Part shown: positions 1,924 to 19,204 of the stretch, in pieces
Numbering within the stretch: position 1 is the first letter of the stretch
How the letters are laid out: each line of letters begins with the position of its first letter
DNA from: a virus
Direction: 5' to 3' (one strand)
DNA length: 20,015 nt
Virus record (IMG/VR): IMGVR_UViG_3300018481_000091
Span: 1-20,015 of that record
Notes under the pieces: model-generated
What the model was told of the DNA's origin: nothing
The model's database searches: none
The model's input: the letters and a program-made list of their open reading frames with translations, nothing else
Translations under genes and position numbers: made by a program

Positions 1924-2778
1924 ATGTCGAAGCGCAAGTACCGGGGTCCCCGGACGTACGAGAAGGGCCAGTCCTTCCCACCAGCACCGAAGCTCCCGCA
2001 CAAGCCCATGAGCGATGCGGGGCTGTTGACCCACCTGAACGTGATCAAGGTCATCGCGGCCTTCCCCGACACGGTCATGACGGCGGGCCAGATCAAGGAT
2101 TTCGTCGTCCTCGACGGCGGCGAGGTCATTCGGAACTCGGTCAACCAGTCCCTGCACCACCTGTGCAAGCTGTCGGTCCGAGAGAACGGCGAGCCTGCTT
2201 CCGGCCACCGGTCCCGCCTCGATGACTACGAGGAGTTCCACGACGTGCTCGGCATGGGCGTCCTCTACCGGACCACCACCGGCACTTTCGTCCTCGACAC
2301 GGAGGCGTCATGGCAGGGAGAGTGGCATCGGAATGCCCGAGGCATTCAGGTGCGACGCCTGCGCCTCGTCGGCAACCGGTGGCCGCACCTTCCCTACAAG
2401 GGCGAGACGAGGGTCATCCCGGCCAACAAGGCCAAGGCTCCCGATGTCCCGCCCGCCGAGAAGGTGGTGGAGTCCGTGCTGGACGAGATCGACAACCCCA
2501 AGCCGGTCGCCGAGATGACCGTCGAGGAGTACGTCGGCCCGGACGACGTGTTCGTCCCCACCCCCGAGGCCGACAAGGCCGAGTTGGCTGCGTACCATGA
2601 CGAGCCGGTCAAGGTCGGTACGAACGGGTCGAATCCAGAGTCGGTCAAGGACTCAGGTTTCGAACTGCTCTCCATGCCGACCAAGATCATCACCGGCTCC
2701 GAGATGGTTCTCCGGGTCGACAACGAGATCGTCATCGCCACGGTCCTCAAGCGGTACCCACTCGCTGGGAGATCGTGA
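1924..2778 (+). CDS. Hypothetical protein (284 aa) with a possible winged-helix domain
   Basis: Residues 33-86 read as a helical DNA-binding-like module: LLTHLNVIKVIAAFP, then TAGQIKDFV and a likely recognition helix VIRNSVNQSLHHLCKL. They are followed by a hairpin-like segment (GVLYRTTTGTFVLD, 112-125) that could be the wing. The first 30 residues are basic. The middle and C-terminal parts (about 165-250) are acidic and Pro-rich, so probably flexible, before a short strand-rich end. The gene has its own promoter and structured leader and a clear SD, which suits a regulator. No specific family is recognised, so transcriptional regulator is inference. It overlaps the next gene as TGATG. Confidence 0.65.
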   Translation: MSKRKYRGPRTYEKGQSFPPAPKLPHKPMSDAGLLTHLNVIKVIAAFPDTVMTAGQIKDFVVLDGGEVIRNSVNQSLHHLCKLSVRENGEPASGHRSRLDDYEEFHDVLGMGVLYRTTTGTFVLDTEASWQGEWHRNARGIQVRRLRLVGNRWPHLPYKGETRVIPANKAKAPDVPPAEKVVESVLDEIDNPKPVAEMTVEEYVGPDDVFVPTPEADKAELAAYHDEPVKVGTNGSNPESVKDSGFELLSMPTKIITGSEMVLRVDNEIVIATVLKRYPLAGRS

Positions 2779-3200
2779 TGTCCGGCGGGACGCTGGGGAC
2801 CTCCGGGGAGCATCAAGCTCCCCGGAGGGTCACCACCCACGACGCTGAATGCACGCTCTGTCAGACCGCTGACCGAGAGGGCTGGTGGGGTTCCTCCGAG
2901 GTGACCCACTGCCGGGAGTGTGGTGCGACGTGGCCCATGGCGACGAAGACCGCCCACTGCTGCCGGTGCCACCGGACCTTCTCCAGCCACGGAGTCTCGG
3001 ACCGCCATCAGAGCGGTGGCGAGTGCCACAACCCGGCCACCATGACCAACGAGAAGACGGGCGAGAAGATCTACGGCTTCCCGCCCCGACCCAACAAGTA
3101 CGGCACGCCGATCTGGCGTGGCCCCGCATCAGAACTCCCCTTCAAGAAGGAGGCGGAAAATGACGAAGTTGAGAGCACGCCTCAAGGTGGAGGCGGCTGA
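2778..3200 (+). CDS. Phage zinc-finger protein (140 aa)
   Basis: Three metal-binding pairs are visible: C25/C28, C45/C48 (HCRECGATW) and a C2HC-like finger, C61-x2-C64 ... H77 ... C83, in the form HCCRCHRTFSS...DRHQSGGEC. Such CHRTF...DRH...C fingers are familiar from actinophage proteins of unknown role, probably binding DNA or protein. The ATG at 2778 overlaps the previous stop (TGATG). Codons 8-17 coincide with a perfect 12-bp hairpin, and no later start keeps the first Cys pair. The C-terminal 40 residues are Pro- and charge-rich. Confidence 0.7.
   Translation: MSGGTLGTSGEHQAPRRVTTHDAECTLCQTADREGWWGSSEVTHCRECGATWPMATKTAHCCRCHRTFSSHGVSDRHQSGGECHNPATMTNEKTGEKIYGFPPRPNKYGTPIWRGPASELPFKKEAENDEVESTPQGGGG
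2800..2828 (+). terminator. Perfect 12-bp hairpin inside the start of the zinc-finger gene
   Basis: CCTCCGGGGAGC (2800-2811) and GCTCCCCGGAGG (2817-2828) are exact reverse complements around the 5-nt loop ATCAA. No T-run follows. It sits 22 nt after the stop of the possible regulator gene, so it may act as a leaky terminator or attenuator, or as a translation brake within the next gene. Confidence 0.4.
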
Positions 3201-7349: not shown

Positions 7350-7588
7350 AGATCACCCGGCACGATGTGCTCACCTGCCCTGTCTGCCACTACGAGATGG
7401 ACTCCTCGACCGATCCGCTCGGCAACGACACTCCGAACCCCGGCGACATCACGATCTGCATCGAATGCGGGTCGGTGCTCGTCTATGGCGAGGGTCTACG
7501 TCTGGTCCAGACATGGGACCCCGAGATACTGGAGCACCCCAATGTGGTCCGCTTTACTGACGCATGGCTGCGGTTACATGGAGAATGA
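7346..7588 (+). CDS. Zinc-ribbon protein (80 aa)
   Basis: The GTG at 7346 overlaps the previous stop as GTGA. C11-PV-C14 and C38-IE-C41-G make a clear four-Cys ribbon, with a loop containing NTPNPGD-like sequence (NDTPNPGDITICIECGSVLVY). Such ribbons occur in phage proteins of unknown function. The C-terminal part is a helix (PNVVRFTDAWLRLHGE). It is followed by the Cro-like gene through ATGA. Confidence 0.75.
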   Translation: MKITRHDVLTCPVCHYEMDSSTDPLGNDTPNPGDITICIECGSVLVYGEGLRLVQTWDPEILEHPNVVRFTDAWLRLHGE

Positions 7589-7809
7589 CCGTTGTTCACG
7601 TCGCTGCCGCCATTGACGAGGCTCTGACCAAGCTGGGTCACGGTTCCGTCGTGAGCCTCGCCGATATCTGCGAAGTAGCACATTCCACCGTGGGTACATG
7701 GCGCTCCGGCTCTCGTCTGCCTCGGCCCCAGCGATGGGCCTGTATCGAGGACTTCCTGCTGCTGGAGCGCGGGACCATCTACGAGCTACTGGCAGAAGAC
7801 GACGAGTAG
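7585..7809 (+). CDS. Cro/C1-type helix-turn-helix protein (74 aa)
   Basis: Residues about 9-68 fit the XRE fold: a first helix (AAIDEALTKLG), LADICEVAHSTVGTWRSGSRLP as the turn and recognition helices (25-46), then helices RWACIEDFLLL and TIYELLAE. The S-T-V..W..G..P pattern is typical of Cro/C1 repressors. The length is right for a single-domain DNA binder. It is the last gene of the first block and lies just ahead of an inverted repeat before the glycosidase gene, which it might control (inference). I chose the ATG at 7585 for the ATGA overlap. Confidence 0.75.
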   Translation: MTVVHVAAAIDEALTKLGHGSVVSLADICEVAHSTVGTWRSGSRLPRPQRWACIEDFLLLERGTIYELLAEDDE

Positions 7810-7817
7810 TGACGCTG

Positions 7818-7842
7818 CCACCACATTCAGTGGTGGTAAACA
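7818..7842 (+). promoter_or_regulatory. Inverted repeat and possible promoter before the glycosidase gene
   Basis: CCACCAC (7818-7824) and GTGGTGG (7830-7836) are exact inverted repeats around ATTCA. The hexamer TAAACA (7837-7842) abuts the repeat and ends 6 nt before the ATG at 7849, the spacing seen at other leaderless starts here, but it lacks the final T of TAnnnT. The repeat could be an operator, possibly for the adjacent HTH protein, or a terminator without a T-run. Confidence 0.4.
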
Positions 7843-7848
7843 TTGTTC

Positions 7849-8880
7849 ATGGCAGAGCCGGTGAGCCGACGCCAATTGCTGACGGCGGGTGCTCTGGGAG
7901 TCATCGGCGTAGCTGCCTGCGCTACAAGGGCGGCTGCGGTACCTCCGGGTGGATATCCGCCGGGACACCCCCGTTATGTGCCGCCAACTACTAGTTCGAC
8001 ATCAACTAGTACTTCGTTAGTAGGAACGTCGAGCACCACGTCGACCACCAGCACCACGACGGTGCCGACGGATCAGCTCTTCTGGGGTGCGGCCTACGGT
8101 GGCAACACCGAACCGGGTAGCAGGTACGGCTCACCCGGTATCGGCCTCGGTCGGACGTACTGGAACATGTCGAACGCTGGGTCTTCTGTCATCCGCGCAG
8201 CGAGCGATGCCTCCAAGGGCAGGCTCCCGTGGGTGTCATACAAGGTGGGTGGATGGGCGGCGTTCGCCAACGGAGGTCAGGACGCCGCCTTCCGCTCACT
8301 CCTCACCCAGCTCAACGGGATCGGCACGGCTGTCTGGCTGACCGTCCACCATGAGCCGGAAGGCTCGGGCCGATACGGGACCGACGAGAGCACGCCCTCT
8401 GACAACTCCTCCATAAACGACTGGAAGAACGCCCAGCGGCATGTCCGTGACCTCATGGAGGAGGTCGGCACCCAGAACATCGCCTTCGCCCCCGTGCTCA
8501 TGGGATGGACGTGGGACGAGCGGTCGAACCGGGTCCCGGCGTCGTGGATCGACGGCATGGCCGGTGTCTGGGACTTCTTCGGGATCGACTGCTACAACGA
8601 CACCACGAACCCGGCGGTCCAGAAGTTCGAAGACATGGCGATGTGGCGGGACTGCACCGCCGATCTCACGGCACGCGGCTACCAGATCGGCATCGGGGAG
8701 TGGGGCACCAGAGGGTCCGGTGCGGACATCGCCGCCCAGCACGCTGACTTCCTCGACAAGGGCATCATCGGTGCTGCGTACTTCGACTCCGACCTGAACA
8801 GCCCGACCGGCGGATGGTCGTTGACCAGCGCTCAACTACCGGTCTTCAACACCTTCTGCCTGACTTCGTCACGGGTCTAG
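7849..8880 (+). CDS. Tat-exported lipoprotein, glycoside hydrolase of TIM-barrel type
   Basis: The 343-aa protein starts with a twin-arginine signal (SRRQLL, R7/R8) and a hydrophobic stretch ending in the lipobox-like VAAC (C24). A Pro-rich and Ser/Thr-rich linker runs to about 74. The rest reads as a clan GH-A-like barrel with WLTVHHEPEG (E169, likely acid/base) and IGIGEWGT (E284, likely nucleophile), about 115 residues apart. It resembles bacterial GH26-like beta-mannanases, but the substrate cannot be read. It would fold before export, then be tethered outside the membrane and trim envelope glycans. The ATG at 7849 is preferred; TTG 7843 and GTG 7861 (starting at SRRQ) are alternatives. 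Confidence 0.75.
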   Translation: MAEPVSRRQLLTAGALGVIGVAACATRAAAVPPGGYPPGHPRYVPPTTSSTSTSTSLVGTSSTTSTTSTTTVPTDQLFWGAAYGGNTEPGSRYGSPGIGLGRTYWNMSNAGSSVIRAASDASKGRLPWVSYKVGGWAAFANGGQDAAFRSLLTQLNGIGTAVWLTVHHEPEGSGRYGTDESTPSDNSSINDWKNAQRHVRDLMEEVGTQNIAFAPVLMGWTWDERSNRVPASWIDGMAGVWDFFGIDCYNDTTNPAVQKFEDMAMWRDCTADLTARGYQIGIGEWGTRGSGADIAAQHADFLDKGIIGAAYFDSDLNSPTGGWSLTSAQLPVFNTFCLTSSRV

Positions 8881-8913: not shown

Positions 8914-9063
8914 GTGTCGAGGAAACGGCGGGAGCGGGGCTGGGTGGAGGAGGCGATGCGGAGTCTCTTCTTCCTGCTGCTGTGGTTCACCTGCATCATC
9001 TTCGGCTTCATCGGCTGCATGGTCGTGATCTTCTGGCTGGCGTTCGGACACGTTCCGGTCTAG
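8914..9063 (+). CDS. Small single-span membrane protein (49 aa)
   Basis: From the GTG at 8914 the protein has a basic head (SRKRRERGWVEEAM) followed by one strongly hydrophobic span (SLFFLLLWFTCIIFGFIGCMVVIFWLAF) and a short tail. An in-frame ATG at 8956 has a strong SD (GGAGGAGG, 8946-8953) and would give 35 residues, so the start is uncertain. The basic head favours an N-in topology. Next to an envelope glycosidase it could be a holin-like or regulatory membrane peptide; this is inference. Its TAG overlaps the stop of the antisense gene. Confidence 0.55.
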   Translation: MSRKRRERGWVEEAMRSLFFLLLWFTCIIFGFIGCMVVIFWLAFGHVPV

Positions 9064-9164
9064 TCGTCATCGTTTCGATCGATCCCGTCCAGTACAATCA
9101 CCAGAGCCAGTAGTGTCACCAGCACCACGATGGTGGCGACGACGGACAAGACACTTGCGAACAC
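9060..9164 (-). CDS. Tiny antisense membrane protein (34 aa)
   Basis: The GTG at 9164 has GGAGG upstream at 9 nt. The protein is one hydrophobic span (FASVLSVVATIVVLVTLLALVIVL) with an acidic tail (DGIDRNDDD). It converges with the membrane protein at 8914, and both stops lie in the palindrome CTAG (9060-9063). Charge distribution suggests an acidic end opposite in character to its neighbour's basic head. Very short, so confidence is moderate. No family is recognised. Confidence 0.45.
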   Translation of the reverse strand: MFASVLSVVATIVVLVTLLALVIVLDGIDRNDDD

Positions 9165-10697: not shown

Positions 10698-11014
10698 TGA
10701 GCACCGACGAGGAGTGGCTGGCAGAGATCCGCGATGCGGTCGCTGCCGAGAAGGACTGGCGTCGGAACCGGGTCTACGAAGAGACGTACAGGTGGCGGGA
10801 CGCAACGACCTTTCTCCTTGAGCGACTCAACGCCATCGACCATGTCCATGTCGTGACCACCCGCACCAACTGGGGTGTCACCACCGAGGTCTGCCTGTTC
10901 GATGACGAGGTGTGGCCGTGCTGGCACCACCGGCAGATCCATCCCGACGATTCGGCCACCCAGCAGTACGTCGAGAAGGTCCAACAGGAGATGGAGGAAC
11001 TGTCTCATGAGTGA
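10697..11014 (+). CDS. Helical hypothetical protein with a WPC motif (105 aa)
   Basis: The ATG at 10697 shares TGATG with the previous stop. Long charged helices (DEEWLAEIRDAVAAEKDWRRNRVYEETYRWRDATTFLLERLNAI) precede a strand pair and the segment VCLFDDEVWPCWHHRQIH, a looser version of the WPC motif in the next two genes. The C-terminal helix is acidic. No family is recognised. Confidence 0.7.
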   Translation: MSTDEEWLAEIRDAVAAEKDWRRNRVYEETYRWRDATTFLLERLNAIDHVHVVTTRTNWGVTTEVCLFDDEVWPCWHHRQIHPDDSATQQYVEKVQQEMEELSHE

Positions 11015-11330
11015 CCTGACCGAACGCCTGTGGTACGCCTCCGAGCGTGTCTCGCCGTCCGACATCACGATGGGACCACCGCCACGCGGCTCCTTGAAGT
11101 GGGTGGAGATCCAGTGCGCCGAAGCCGCCAAGCTCATCGACGCCATCGACGCCCTGCACGTCCCGAGCAGGTTCGACCTCGCAGAGCGGTGTGAAGGATG
11201 CGAGTTGCCGTGGCCGTGCCGGACGCATCTCCTGATCTACCCACGTCCTTCGCTGGAAACACTTCTGGCGGGTACGGAGTTTGAAGGCTGGCTTGATCCC
11301 GCCAAAGGCGAGGAGGCGAACGATGGTTAG
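11007..11330 (+). CDS. CxxC...WPC-motif protein, first of a tandem paralogue pair (107 aa)
   Basis: The ATG at 11007 overlaps the previous stop by 8 nt. It has MSDLTERLWY at the start, EAAKLIDAIDALH at 39-51, then C62-EG-C65-ELPWPC71-RTHLLIYP. The same parts recur in the same order in the protein at 11364. The Cys set likely binds zinc. The extra C-terminal 30 residues (SLETLLAGTEFEGWLDPAKGEE) are absent from the paralogue. Confidence 0.7.
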   Translation: MSDLTERLWYASERVSPSDITMGPPPRGSLKWVEIQCAEAAKLIDAIDALHVPSRFDLAERCEGCELPWPCRTHLLIYPRPSLETLLAGTEFEGWLDPAKGEEANDG

Positions 11331-11458
11331 CCACCGGTATCCGGCCGATTCCGAGGCCGTCGCATGAGCGACCTGACTGACCGACTGCGGTACCTCTACC
11401 CGAGTTCTGCTCATGTGAGTGTCAACGATGCCGCCAAGCTCATCGACGCCATCGACGC
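11124..11458 (+). repeat. Direct repeat in the tandem paralogues (29 nt at 11124-11152 and 11430-11458)
   Basis: Both copies read GCCGCCAAGCTCATCGACGC and then CATCGACGC, identical over 29 nt. They encode AAKLIDAIDA in both proteins. The perfect match, against divergent flanks, points to duplication with later divergence or to local gene conversion. Confidence 0.7.
11323..11367 (+). CDS. Possible 14-aa coupling ORF
   Basis: ATG at 11323 has GAGGAGG upstream, encodes MVSHRYPADSEAVA, and ends in a TGA that overlaps the ATG at 11364. It overlaps the previous stop too. It may be a real micro-ORF that passes ribosomes to the next gene, which lacks its own SD, or chance. Confidence 0.3.
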   Translation: MVSHRYPADSEAVA

Positions 11459-11576
11459 TCTCCACGAACGACACATGGTGACGCTCACTGGTCCCGGTTC
11501 GAAAGAAGCGCCGTACTGCACTTGCGGTGACCCGTGGCCGTGCCAGACCCATCTCCTCATCCACCCGGAGGGGTAA
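11364..11576 (+). CDS. CxxC-like...WPC-motif protein, second of the tandem pair (70 aa)
   Basis: It starts MSDLTDRLRYLYP, repeats NDAAKLIDAIDALHERH, and ends YCTCGDPWPCQTHLLIHPEG (C52, C54, C60). Relative to its neighbour at 11007 the first Cys pair is spaced C-x-C rather than C-x2-C, and the C-terminal extension is missing. No clear SD is seen; it may rely on the 14-codon ORF in front. Gene duplication is the simplest explanation. Confidence 0.7.
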   Translation: MSDLTDRLRYLYPSSAHVSVNDAAKLIDAIDALHERHMVTLTGPGSKEAPYCTCGDPWPCQTHLLIHPEG

Positions 11577-11642: not shown

Positions 11643-11649
11643 CGTGCAT

Positions 11650-13251
11650 ATGGCGTTGTACGAGGATCTCGGTCCTGACCTTGACGATCTCGCTCCCCCG
11701 GAGGTGGAGGAGGACCGTTTTCCTGAGGACGAGGATGATCTGGAACCTGAGTTGTCCGAGGAGGACAGCGAGTTCCTCGACCAGATCGTGATCAGGACGC
11801 TGGTGTTCTCCGAGAAGCTGTCGGGGATGACGCTGCGCCCGTACCAGCGGGAGTTGGCATATCGAATTGTCGAATCCGTGATTCTCGCCGACGGTGAGGA
11901 GATCACGGCGGTCCAGTCCCGCCAGTCCGGCAAGAGCGAGTGCTGCGCCATCGTGGTGTCGGGGATGATGCTGCTGTTCCCCAAGCTGGCGAAGGCGTTC
12001 GCGATATTCGAACGGTTCGAACGGGGACTGATGGTCGGCCTCTTCGCCCCGGTCGACGGCCAGAGCGAGCTGATCTACCAGAAGGTCATCGGAATCCTGA
12101 ATTCCCAGCGGGCGAAGGATATGTACGACGACCCGGAGCTGGACGAGAAGGTCGTGCCGGGGGCCAAGATGGCCGTGCTCCGGTCAGGCTCGTTCTGCCG
12201 CCGCCAGACCGCCCACCCCAAGGCGAAGATCGAAGGCTCCTCGTACCATCTCGTGATTCTCGATGAGTCTCAGGACATGGATGAGACGATCATCCGCAAG
12301 TCGATCATGCCCATGCTCGCCGCCTACGCCGGGACCGCCGTGAAGATCGGGACGCCCAGCTACCACAAGGGCGACTTCTACAAGGCCATCCAGTTCAACA
12401 AGCGGCGGCAGACCCAGCGGGGAGCCAAGCGGAACCATTTCGAGTACGACTACAAGGTCGTCTCCAAATACAACCCGTATTACGAGAAGTTCATAAAGAA
12501 GGAGAAGCTCCGCATCGGCGAGGACTCCGACGAGTTCATGCTCTCCTACGCCCTCAAGTGGCTCCTCGACCGAGGGATGCTCATCACCGAGGACGTGATG
12601 GACTACCTCGCCGACACGTCGATGCAGATGGTCCGTGGCTGGTCCCGTTCACCGGTCGTGGTGGGGATCGATCCGGCCCGTGTGCAGGACTCCACCGTCG
12701 TCACCGTCATGTGGGTGGACTGGGAGCACCCGGACCCGGCTGGATATCGGGAGCATCGGATTCTCAATTGGCTGGAGATCAACAACGCCGAGTGGGAAGA
12801 CCAGTACTACCAGATATATGAGTTTCTGGAGCCGTACGACGTGGCCCGCATCGGGGTCGACGCTCAGGGCATGGGTGGTCCCATCGCCGAACGGCTGGAC
12901 CGGATCCTCGGGCATCGGTGTGAGGTCGTGCCCTGCTTCTCCGACGCCAAGAACCAGTCGGAGCGCTGGAAGCACTTCATCCAGATCCTCCAGCGGCGGC
13001 TGCTCGTCTACCCCGGTCACTCCAAGGCGAGGCGCACCCGGAACTGGAAGCGCTTCCGGCAGCAGATGGAGGATGCCGAGAAGCAGATGAAGGGGAACTA
13101 CCTACTGGTCGCCGCTCCCACCGAAGGCCCGGTGGGCGGCAAGTACGCGAATGACGACTTTGTAGATTCGGCGGCGCTTGCCTGCTACATGTCGCACTAC
13201 GACACGGCACCTGAAGCGGAGTCAGTCACCGCTCCGTGGTACCGGTCCTGA
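11650..13251 (+). CDS. terL: Terminase large subunit (TerL)
   Basis: This is the ATP-driven DNA packaging motor with headful or site-specific nuclease activity, docking on the portal. In the 533-aa protein the Walker A-like SRQSGKS is at 90-96, Walker B LVILDES at 201-207 and the coupling-type motif GTPS at 234-237. The RNase H-like nuclease domain has GIDPAR (D341), GVDAQG (D404) and an Asp cluster NDDFVD (D502, D503, D506). The length fits the family. The N-terminal 45 residues are unusually acidic. I chose ATG 11650 for the -10 spacing; ATG 11638 lies in the hairpin tail. No small subunit gene is recognised beside it. Confidence 0.95.
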   Translation: MALYEDLGPDLDDLAPPEVEEDRFPEDEDDLEPELSEEDSEFLDQIVIRTLVFSEKLSGMTLRPYQRELAYRIVESVILADGEEITAVQSRQSGKSECCAIVVSGMMLLFPKLAKAFAIFERFERGLMVGLFAPVDGQSELIYQKVIGILNSQRAKDMYDDPELDEKVVPGAKMAVLRSGSFCRRQTAHPKAKIEGSSYHLVILDESQDMDETIIRKSIMPMLAAYAGTAVKIGTPSYHKGDFYKAIQFNKRRQTQRGAKRNHFEYDYKVVSKYNPYYEKFIKKEKLRIGEDSDEFMLSYALKWLLDRGMLITEDVMDYLADTSMQMVRGWSRSPVVVGIDPARVQDSTVVTVMWVDWEHPDPAGYREHRILNWLEINNAEWEDQYYQIYEFLEPYDVARIGVDAQGMGGPIAERLDRILGHRCEVVPCFSDAKNQSERWKHFIQILQRRLLVYPGHSKARRTRNWKRFRQQMEDAEKQMKGNYLLVAAPTEGPVGGKYANDDFVDSAALACYMSHYDTAPEAESVTAPWYRS

Positions 13252-13515: not shown

Positions 13516-13908
13516 ATGCCACGAGGACGAGATACCCGAGGAGATCCTTCTCGACAGGTAAGTCGAGAACGGTCCATCGCCGAACACGACGACACCTTCC
13601 GGCAGCAGCCCGGTTGGGCCATGTGGCACGGTGGCGACGGCGTGACCGCTCCCGGTGACCCCTACGACCAGTCGTCCTACGAGTACTACCCCAACATGGG
13701 GGCGGCGGAAGGGGCGATGAAGGACCGGTACTACAACCGGGGCGGCGACACCCCGGCGGTCGGGCACGATCAGGAGATGCAGTGGCACATCGGCTCCGAG
13801 CCGTGGAACGCCTCGGAGCCATATCCAGACGCCCGTATCTACCAGAACCAGTTCGAAGACCCGACGAGCGTCACCGAGGAACCGACCTACGGCTGGGAAC
13901 GCACCTGA
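13516..13908 (+). CDS. Head-module protein with N-terminal RG-x-DTR motif, copy 1 (130 aa)
   Basis: It begins MPRGRDTRGDPSRQVSR, a motif shared with the proteins at 14320 and 14534. The rest is rich in Tyr, Gly, Asp and Pro (YDQSSYEYYPNMGAA ... YYNRGGDTPAV) and looks largely disordered. It lies between terminase and portal, so a minor capsid, internal or packaging-related role is possible. The function is not recognised. Confidence 0.7.
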   Translation: MPRGRDTRGDPSRQVSRERSIAEHDDTFRQQPGWAMWHGGDGVTAPGDPYDQSSYEYYPNMGAAEGAMKDRYYNRGGDTPAVGHDQEMQWHIGSEPWNASEPYPDARIYQNQFEDPTSVTEEPTYGWERT

Positions 13909-14319: not shown

Positions 14320-14529
14320 ATGGCCCGAGGTGAGGACACTCGGTATCACCCCTCTCGCGGGGTGAGCAAGGAGTCGCTCGGCCTGACCCGTGCCGGTCGT
14401 GATCCCAACGCCATCCGCCACGTCAATCCCGCAGCGGGACTGGTGATGACGGAGAGCGGTTCCACGCTGGGTGCCGGTACCCCGGAGTGGAAGGCTGCGA
14501 TGGAGAAGCACCCCGAGGGTCTGGACTGA
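14320..14529 (+). CDS. Small protein with N-terminal RG-x-DTR motif, copy 2 (69 aa)
   Basis: It begins MARGEDTRYHPSRGVSK, matching copy 1 at ten or so positions. The remainder (GRDPNAIRHVNPAAGLVMTESGSTLGAGTPEWKAAMEKHPEGLD) is not related to copies 1 or 3. It starts 3 nt after the previous gene. Function unknown; the shared tip suggests a common targeting or docking signal. Confidence 0.65.
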   Translation: MARGEDTRYHPSRGVSKESLGLTRAGRDPNAIRHVNPAAGLVMTESGSTLGAGTPEWKAAMEKHPEGLD

Positions 14530-16598: not shown

Positions 16599-18263
16599 AT
16601 GAACTTCTTCCCTCCTAGTTATCGAGCGGCAGCTTCTGACCTGACCGTGGCGGTATCTCCGCTCGGTCTGGTTGAGCTTGCCGACGAGGAGTTCGAAGTA
16701 CACGGACCTCGTTTGTCGAGATACGCCTCCAACTGGGCGTGGTACCTCGGACACCACTGGGCGTCGAAGCGTGAGATCGGTGAGCCGCAGCTCACGTTCA
16801 ACTACTCCCGTGCCCTCGTGGACTACGGGGTGAACTTCGCCTTCAACAAGCCGCCCCACTTTGGGTCCCCCGAGGCCACCGAGGTGATCACTCCCCACAT
16901 CCTCAAAAGGGTTTGGGAAGTCGACAACGACAAGGACTCCCTCATATGGGATCTCGGCCTGATGGGAGCGGTGTCGGGCGACGTGTTCGTGAAGGTCGCC
17001 TACGAGCCGCCAGTCGAAAACCCACTGACCGGCGAGGTGTCTCCCGGTCGGGTGCGGATCTTGCCGATCAACCCGGCGTTCGCCTTCCCCGAATGGCACC
17101 CGCACGACAAAGACCGCGTCATCAAGTTCAAGATGAAGTACAAGTTCTGGGGTGTGGGTGCGGACGGCACCCGGATGATCCACACCTACACGGAGTTGAT
17201 GACTGACACCTCCATCGAGGAGTACATCAACGACGAGATGATCGATCAGCGGCCCAACCCGCTCGGTCGGATCCCCGTCGTCTACGTCCAGAACTTCCCG
17301 GTCGTGTCCTCCCCGTGGGGACTCTCCGACATCCAAGACCTCATCCCGCTGAACCGGGAGTACAACGAGAAGGCCACCGAGGTCAGCGACATCGTCAACT
17401 ACCACAGTGCTCCGATCACCGTGGTGCTGGGTGCCAAGGCGGGCAACCTTGAGCGTGGACCCAAGAAGATTTGGGCGATTCCCAACAAGGATGCGTCGAT
17501 TCAAAACCTCCAGTTGGAGGGCAACCTCTCCGGTCCGATCGGGTATCTGGAGCTGATCAAGACCGCCATGCACGAGATGGCCGGTGTCCCGGTCACGGCC
17601 CTCGGGCAGATGCAGCCGGTGTCCAACACCTCTGGTGTGGCCCTGCACATGACGTATCTCCCGCTCATGCAGAAGTACGAGCACAAGAAGACCCAGTACA
17701 CGAAGCTCTTCAAGCGGATCAACGACCTCGTCATCCGGCACATCGCCATATATGAGCCAGAGATGATGATGTTCAGCCCGTTCGTCTCGGCGGTGAAGCC
17801 GGGACCGACGCAGTACCTCCAGTTGGATCCGAACGACCCGGTCACCTACGAGTCCACGGTGGAGTGGCCTTCGCCGCTGCCGCTCGACGTGCTGCTCACC
17901 CTCAACGAGGTGCAGGCCGAGATGTCACTGGGCATGGAGTCGAAGCGGGGTGCCCTGAAGAAGATGGGCACGGCGTTCCCCGACCAGAAGATCCAAGAGG
18001 TCTTCGAAGAGACGGTCGAGGACACGAAGCGTCAGGGTGCGCTCAACCTCATCAACGCCCAAGTCGCCCAGTTCACGATTCAGGCGACCGGCATGACACC
18101 GGACGGACAGCCGCTCATCCTGCCCGGTGTCACCCAGACCGACGAGGAAGGAAACCCGGTCGGCATGGCTCCGACCGTGGATCCGTATCTTGCTCAGGAA
18201 ATACTGATGCTCGCCTATGAGTACCAGCCAGCGGCTAGAACAGAGTTTGATGAAGACGGGTAA
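16599..18263 (+). CDS. Portal protein
   Basis: The portal is a 12-subunit ring at one capsid corner through which DNA passes and on which terminase docks. The 554-aa sequence has the SPP1-gp6-like layout: FNYSRALVDYGVNFAFNKPP near 66-85, a stretch of strands (GDVFVKVAYEPP), VVYVQNFPVVSSPWGLSDI and DLIPLNREYNEKATEVSDIVNYHSAPITVV in the middle, and long helices to 430 (MAGVPVTALGQM ... YLPLMQKYEHKK). The C-terminal part is acidic. It has no good SD; TATAAA lies just before the ATG. It sits between the 466-aa protein and the scaffold, the usual order. Confidence 0.9.
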   Translation: MNFFPPSYRAAASDLTVAVSPLGLVELADEEFEVHGPRLSRYASNWAWYLGHHWASKREIGEPQLTFNYSRALVDYGVNFAFNKPPHFGSPEATEVITPHILKRVWEVDNDKDSLIWDLGLMGAVSGDVFVKVAYEPPVENPLTGEVSPGRVRILPINPAFAFPEWHPHDKDRVIKFKMKYKFWGVGADGTRMIHTYTELMTDTSIEEYINDEMIDQRPNPLGRIPVVYVQNFPVVSSPWGLSDIQDLIPLNREYNEKATEVSDIVNYHSAPITVVLGAKAGNLERGPKKIWAIPNKDASIQNLQLEGNLSGPIGYLELIKTAMHEMAGVPVTALGQMQPVSNTSGVALHMTYLPLMQKYEHKKTQYTKLFKRINDLVIRHIAIYEPEMMMFSPFVSAVKPGPTQYLQLDPNDPVTYESTVEWPSPLPLDVLLTLNEVQAEMSLGMESKRGALKKMGTAFPDQKIQEVFEETVEDTKRQGALNLINAQVAQFTIQATGMTPDGQPLILPGVTQTDEEGNPVGMAPTVDPYLAQEILMLAYEYQPAARTEFDEDG

Positions 18264-18334: not shown

Positions 18335-19204
18335 ATGTCGATTCAGGCAGATACCCCAGACGGCTTCATCGCAGGGGTAGACCCCCGTCAGCCACGGCTT
18401 CCGATTGACCAGATGCCCGCTCAGGACTCTGAGGTGGCTCAGTCACGGGCTGAGGATCAGCGGCAGCAGCAGGCTCCCGCCGATGATCAGACGATCATCA
18501 TCACCGACGACCGTCAGTCCCCGCCGACCGAAGGCGGCTCCGCCCCCTCCCGCATCTTCGATGAGCAGGACGTGGCGCGGATCCGCACCGAGGAGAAGGA
18601 GAAGCTCTACGGGCGGCTCTCCACGCAGGAAGAAGAGCTGAAGACGCTCCGGGCGGAGCGCGAAGAGCGGGTCAAGTCCGAGAAGGCGGCGGAGAACGCT
18701 CGGCAGGCCGAGATCAAGGCCAAGGAAGAGGAGGAGATGGAACTGCGGGATCTCCTCGACCGCCGTGAGCAGGAGTGGGAGCAGAAGTTCGACGGCCTAC
18801 GGGGTCAGTACGACACCGACCGTTCGATCTTCGAACAGGAGCGGCGCTTCCAAGCCCTCTCCGAGTACCGGCGTGATCTGCTGGAGAAGCACGCAGATTC
18901 GATCATGCCCGAACTTCGGGATCTCGTCACCGGAAACACCGAGGAAGAGATTCTGGTATCCATCGAGCAGATGCAACAAAGGACATCTGCTATCATGCAG
19001 AATGTCTCTGACGGTGTGGCAGCACAGCGTCAGACCATGAGGGGATCAGCACCAACGTCTCCCCCCGTGGGGCCAATGGAGAACGAAGAGGCAAACCTAC
19101 AGTTGACGCCCGAGAAAATCGCGGCGATGGATCAATCAACCTACGCCAGATACCGTGAACGGCTTTTGCAAGCTGCTGGACAGGCATACAGGCAGGGTGG
19201 CTAA
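18335..19204 (+). CDS. Putative capsid scaffolding protein
   Basis: The 289-aa protein has a disordered N-terminal quarter rich in Pro/Gln/Asp, then a long charged helix (about 80-180: DVARIRTEEKEKLYGRLSTQ ... EEEEMELRDLLDRREQEWEQKF), and a shorter helical end. This is the usual build of phage scaffolds, which guide capsid protein assembly and then leave. It directly precedes the major capsid gene, the expected order. GAGGA at 8 nt is the SD. No protease domain is seen. The call rests on composition and position. Confidence 0.75.
   Translation: MSIQADTPDGFIAGVDPRQPRLPIDQMPAQDSEVAQSRAEDQRQQQAPADDQTIIITDDRQSPPTEGGSAPSRIFDEQDVARIRTEEKEKLYGRLSTQEEELKTLRAEREERVKSEKAAENARQAEIKAKEEEEMELRDLLDRREQEWEQKFDGLRGQYDTDRSIFEQERRFQALSEYRRDLLEKHADSIMPELRDLVTGNTEEEILVSIEQMQQRTSAIMQNVSDGVAAQRQTMRGSAPTSPPVGPMENEEANLQLTPEKIAAMDQSTYARYRERLLQAAGQAYRQGG

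Follow-up and report, generated by a model that had tools for sequence, protein, structure and literature searches.

A phage-encoded GH26-like protein with a predicted Tat-type export signal

The window analyzed here is an IMG/VR record of 20,015 bases, taken at its full length. It contains an intact open reading frame (ORF) for a putative exported glycosidase, located ahead of the terminase gene, in a variable region away from the tail module (Table 1). Few of the small ORFs that fill this region were found in related contigs, and we regard it as a variable accessory region. The placement of the gene in an early region, as previously proposed from the sequence, was not confirmed. The head genes downstream are all on the + strand. 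The portal protein is 53–54% identical to those of the Streptomyces phages BRock, Alone3, GiJojo, and others, which are its nearest isolated relatives. The window probably derives from a tailed phage, whose host, judging from these portal relatives, would be an actinobacterium. Tail sheath and tube genes are annotated in phage Alone3, and the published description of BRock is that of a virulent myovirus without predicted lysogeny genes (PMC7453282). Relatives of the portal are encoded in 128 IMG/VR stretches, 80 of which were compared, and the glycosidase gene was present in none of these 80 portal-matched contigs.

Table 1. Positions of the glycosidase gene, its parts, and the neighboring features in the window
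Feature	Position	Strand	Basis
Upstream ORF with weak helix-turn-helix similarity	7564..7809	+	phrog_35 repressor, E = 8.5e-4; Pfam CI-repressor HTH, E = 0.018, below cut-off
9-bp hairpin immediately upstream of the glycosidase gene	7816..7838	+	fold z-score −2.45
Putative exported GH26-like glycosidase gene	7849..8880	+	intact ORF, 343 aa
Twin-arginine motif S6-R7-R8-Q9-L10-L11	7864..7881	+	sequence
Lipobox V21-A22-A23-C24, closing the hydrophobic stretch	7909..7920	+	sequence and pattern scan
Ser/Thr/Pro linker, residues 45-74 (30 residues), 87% S/T/P	7981..8070	+	composition
GH26-like (beta/alpha)8 catalytic domain, residues 76-343 (268 residues)	8074..8877	+	family profile and Foldseek on model
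E169, predicted acid/base, in HHEPEG (VHHEPEG)	8353..8355	+	invariant in 11/11; aligned to CtLic26A E109
E284, predicted nucleophile, in IGEWG	8698..8700	+	invariant in 11/11; aligned to CtLic26A E222
Hairpin directly past the stop codon	8890..8912	+	fold z-score −1.4, not significant alone
Small ORF, 49 aa, one transmembrane-like segment, directly downstream	8914..9063	+	translation
Terminase large subunit	11644-13251	+	Pfam/PHROGs search
Portal	16599-18263	+	Pfam/PHROGs search
Scaffold-like gene	18335-19204	+	named from position, as in phage Alone3

In GC3 and codon usage, the glycosidase gene follows the structural genes of the phage (r = 0.93), and it lies on the same strand as its neighbors; on both counts, an assembly chimera is unlikely. 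No canonical promoter or terminator for the glycosidase gene was found around it. The 3′ arm of the upstream hairpin overlaps the GGTGG that precedes the start codons; the hairpin has no T-run and thus is not a canonical terminator, and it could possibly function as an attenuator, an operator, or the end of an upstream transcript. The hairpin past the stop codon, which also has no T-run, is a weak terminator candidate. The 49-aa ORF can be assigned to the cassette only by position. A possible 34-aa single-transmembrane ORF (VFASVLSVVATIVVLVTLLALVIVLDGIDRNDDD; 9062-9164, − strand), whose GTG is preceded by GGAGGG, is oriented towards this 49-aa membrane ORF.

Some other ORFs of the window, all on the + strand, deserve mention. 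Three of them, located between the terminase and the portal (13516-13908, 14320-14529, and from about 14534 onwards), present a common N-terminal (P/A)RG(R/E)DTRxxP(S/A)R(Q/G)V motif; it was absent from the 83 other phage loci scanned and is possibly a common sorting signal. Two tandem paralogous small ORFs (10998-11330 and 11364-11576) both read MSDLT(E/D)RL...AAKLIDAIDALH, and the ORF at 2775-3200 encodes a phage FDXHR zinc-binding domain (Pfam, E = 5.2e-9).

When searched as a single protein, the glycosidase had no match in Pfam, PHROGs, and NCBIfam, and nothing significant was found among PDB sequences, isolated phages, plasmids, and IMG/VR. Weak matches (coat protein, adiponectin, and also leucyl-tRNA ligase) were dismissed as chance. 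Profiles built on its family gave a different picture: the six-member profile matched the GH26 lichenase CtLic26A with E = 1.4e-5 and the eleven-member profile with E = 4.7e-13, over positions 12-269 of 275, i.e., nearly the whole barrel. The eleven-member profile also matched further GH26 chains, with E values up to 2e-5. The Pfam GH26 model matched none of the 11 family members at E values up to 10 (HMMER filters applied), and thus the group is best called GH26-like; the GH5 “Cellulase” Pfam model matched 4 of the 11, all below cut-off. This is a divergent GH26-like group, so far unnamed, which lies beyond the reach of the Pfam GH26 model.

The two AlphaFold models, for which the window and the fetched sequences were the only input, were of moderate confidence (pLDDT 57.6 then 63.8; pTM 0.68 then 0.73), and the predicted structures present the alternating strands and helices of a (beta/alpha)8 barrel. 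In the Foldseek comparison with the PDB, GH26 lichenases were the top matches of both models (for the second, E = 7.4e-10 and TM 0.69); among these is 6zpl_C, presumably a lichenase fused to a transporter. Considering profiles and models together, we are highly confident that the domain is a clan GH-A glycoside hydrolase, with GH26 as its nearest family. The sequence-only reading had spoken of a GH-A-like barrel: the barrel was recovered, and the assignment can be made more specific, namely GH26-like. That reading had also stated beforehand that the absence of a barrel or of a catalytic Glu pair would count against it; both were looked for, and both were found.

Indeed, the two spaced Glu motifs that it had pointed out coincide with E109 and E222 of CtLic26A (numbers counted from the printed profile alignment), which we take to be the acid/base and the nucleophile of that enzyme. 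The acid/base Glu follows strand 4 and the nucleophile Glu lies at the end of strand 7, so that both GH26 positions are occupied. Also invariant in all 11 members are the His that precedes the acid/base, a Tyr (residue 249 of the window protein), and the Gly two positions after the nucleophile. CtLic26A (endoglucanase H, a lichenase; PDB 2bv9, 2v3g, 2cip) thus has the fold in common with the group, with the His-Glu acid/base and the Glu nucleophile equally placed, but the identity is about 16–20%, and a C-terminal YFDSxLNSPxGxW motif is seen within the new group. GH26 enzymes include beta-mannanases, lichenase, and beta-1,3-xylanases, and given this breadth of activities the sequence does not reveal the substrate. 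In GH26 mannanases, two Glu residues serve as acid/base and nucleophile (PMC6556568).

The 11 domains of the family come from the window protein, Saccharibacteria genomes, and other phage contigs. The first relative, found by a genome scan, is encoded by two tandem genes of Ca. Saccharibacteria UBA1050, 32–35% identical to the window protein over the domain. The same genome carries a third copy, another genome encodes a protein with two GH26-like domains, and true members were present in 2 of the 380 genomes drawn from the Saccharibacteria phylum. A further protein (G285/L088, E = 1e-5) was rejected as an ordinary GH5-like cellulase with the nucleophile region in common. Tandem or multi-domain GH26-like surface proteins occur in Saccharibacteria at L003 3657-6918 and at L087/L089. 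All four longer bacterial proteins examined start with a hydrophobic membrane segment, and the three scanned against Pfam contain Ig-like domains. These cellular proteins have HHExEG, GEWGTR, and FDSxLNSPxGxW in common with the window protein, as well as the succession of anchor, spacer, and barrel; they differ in having a membrane segment and an Ig-like spacer (in those scanned) where the window protein has a Tat signal and a Ser/Thr linker.

Profile-guided scans of IMG/VR returned five phage relatives on four contigs: L091, L092 (two genes), L094, and L096. They are mostly within tail or lysis modules. The first L092 copy is near a tape measure gene and the second directly after an amidase; the L094 member lies close to a holin-like ORF and an Rv2525c-like hydrolase, in what resembles a lysis cassette, and that of L091 is upstream of an ORF resembling a terminase by eye. 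In both L092 15998-16927, the copy following the amidase, and L096 7608-8513, an N-terminal coiled-coil-like segment precedes the GH26-like barrel; in L096, a capsid-like ORF, judged by eye, lies upstream. As in the window protein, the catalytic HE and ExG are invariant in these phage proteins, but they have Ig-like, coiled-coil, or Pro-rich partners, and none of the five has an N-terminal export segment. This agrees with the earlier remark that tail-associated enzymes lack such signals. The window protein is 27–35% identical to the bacterial members and 17–23% to the phage members without signal. In the tree, its placement is poorly supported (support 40), and the term “bacterial cell-surface type” therefore refers here only to identity and architecture. 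By these, the window protein looks like a cell-surface type of enzyme carried in a phage.

The 343-aa protein begins with MAEPVSRRQLLTAGALGVIGVAACATRAAAVPPGG..., in which the twin-arginine motif is followed by a hydrophobic stretch (L10-C24, mean Kyte-Doolittle 2.14). Alternative in-frame starts exist (TTG 7843 and GTG 7861), and the RR motif is retained from every start. The twin-arginine motif, the lipobox-like Cys, and the Ser/Thr linker listed in the sequence-only reading are thus all present. We scanned the stop-to-stop ORFs of 100 aa or more on both strands of the window and of 83 other phage loci for a twin-arginine motif, a hydrophobic stretch, and a lipobox combined. The pattern occurred in 1 of 3886 ORFs, the glycosidase gene itself, and twice among the residue-shuffled versions of those ORFs: it is rare, but a chance occurrence is not impossible. 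A chance signal is made unlikely by its location, at the N-terminus of an intact gene and ahead of a linker and of a domain whose bacterial relatives are membrane-anchored. On its motif pattern, this N-terminus is very likely a Tat-type export signal. In Streptomyces lividans TK24, 157 Tat substrates are predicted (PMC5853079); with so large a Tat route in Streptomyces, such a signal would be usable in this kind of host.

An alternative signal peptidase I site (A28-A29-A30/V31, 7930-7941) lies six residues beyond the lipobox C24, and cleavage there, in place of C24 lipidation, would favor secretion. The long Ser/Thr/Pro linker, which leads to no second domain, reads best as a tether. Coherently, the bacterial anchor, spacer, and barrel are repeated by other means in the Tat signal, linker, and barrel of the window protein, which supports a surface tether. 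The glycosidase is probably tethered rather than freely secreted, with C24 as a putative lipidation site. The protein could instead be a virion-associated depolymerase with an N-terminal hydrophobic stretch that is merely signal-like, as the tail or lysis modules of most other phage members would suggest. We consider this highly improbable: those members have no such N-terminus, the gene is upstream of the terminase and away from the tail module, and the combined Tat and lipobox pattern was found in a single ORF.

On balance, the best explanation overall is, by a modest preference, a surface-tethered beta-glycanase that aids release or spread. From the computed motifs, family, fold, catalytic pair, and genomic setting, we infer export in vivo, anchoring, substrate, and purpose as follows. 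The Tat system of the infected cell would export a folded retaining glycoside hydrolase, and its N-terminus would anchor the enzyme, most likely by a lipid on C24 and less likely by an uncleaved signal, or with release after A30. The linker would hold the barrel away from the membrane, within or beyond the wall. There, E169 would protonate the glycosidic oxygen and E284 would form the covalent intermediate, so that the enzyme could cut a beta-linked glycan of the cell’s own wall or extracellular matrix during infection. The most likely outcome would be an easier exit and spread of the progeny. That the target is a host surface or matrix glycan, and not an outside food polymer, is fairly likely; that the purpose is release or dispersal, and not the exclusion of other phages, has in our view even chances.

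Superinfection exclusion, in which the tethered enzyme would trim a host receptor glycan and so block the adsorption of further phages, is an unlikely alternative. It finds a precedent in Ltp of Streptococcus thermophilus phage TP-J34, a phage surface lipoprotein that blocks superinfection (PMC3952083); like Ltp, the window protein would be a phage-encoded, exported lipoprotein placed on the infected cell. However, Ltp is small, its expression belongs to lysogeny, and its described action is to prevent DNA injection and not to cut glycans, while the window protein beyond its signal and linker is a GH26-like barrel. The helix-turn-helix-like ORF is directly upstream of the gene, as with some lysogeny-expressed accessory genes, but neither an integrase nor a clear repressor was found within the 20-kb fragment. 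Release or spread was ranked first since BRock, the best-described relative, is virulent; its lack of predicted lysogeny genes makes superinfection exclusion by lysogenic conversion less likely than release.

Phage glycosidases are usually seen as virion depolymerases, endolysins, or metabolic genes. As an auxiliary metabolic gene, the exported enzyme would digest environmental hemicellulose or glucan and feed the infected cell. Soil and mangrove viromes are reported to contain CAZymes, among them GH26 named by annotation (PMC10127799, PMC6460857), and a GH5 endomannanase encoded by a virus of thawing permafrost proved active (PMC6786970). Nevertheless, this is a lone gene, which neither uptake genes nor downstream sugar genes accompany on the fragment, and its anchor and long linker make the enzyme a less obvious fit for bulk polymer. 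We consider a metabolic role quite unlikely. The endomannanase, a chitosanase (PMC9485262), and three GH32 enzymes of Bacillus phages (PMC4595243) are, like the window protein, phage-encoded glycosidases; unlike it, these GH32 enzymes lack a signal peptide (PMC4595243).

Lastly, the barrel could cut a wall polymer during host lysis, as an exported endolysin-like enzyme. No endolysin was seen on the 20-kb fragment, which leaves room for a lysis role; furthermore, export signals are known on some endolysins, and both the L094 relative and the second L092 copy have lysis-type neighbors, as described above. Against this, we know of no GH26 enzyme that cuts peptidoglycan, and no recognizable holin adjoins the gene, only the 49-aa ORF with its single transmembrane segment. 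We therefore regard this role as very unlikely. Of the sequence-only interpretation as a whole, one part stood, namely that a phage encodes a glycoside hydrolase barrel preceded by an export-type signal; the surface-change roles it had suggested (a block on superinfection, or help in release) are putative.

Taken in full, our tentative proposal is that a virulent phage has the infected cell display a membrane-tethered glycosidase through the host Tat system, remodeling the cell’s own glycans during lytic infection. The enzyme would belong to an unnamed GH26-like group common to phages and Saccharibacteria, with a Tat lipoprotein signal and a linker replacing, in the phage version, the membrane segment and the Ig spacer. 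We found no report of a phage Tat-type lipoprotein glycosidase in the open-access library searched. If the proposal is true, the phage would be using its host cell, infected but still alive, for the display of an enzyme. The GH26-like enzymes are extended to a group missed by the Pfam model, whose closest bacterial members found here are in Saccharibacteria. Many Saccharibacteria live on actinobacterial surfaces, and gene exchange between phages and epibionts with common hosts is a testable idea, although not one demonstrated by these data.
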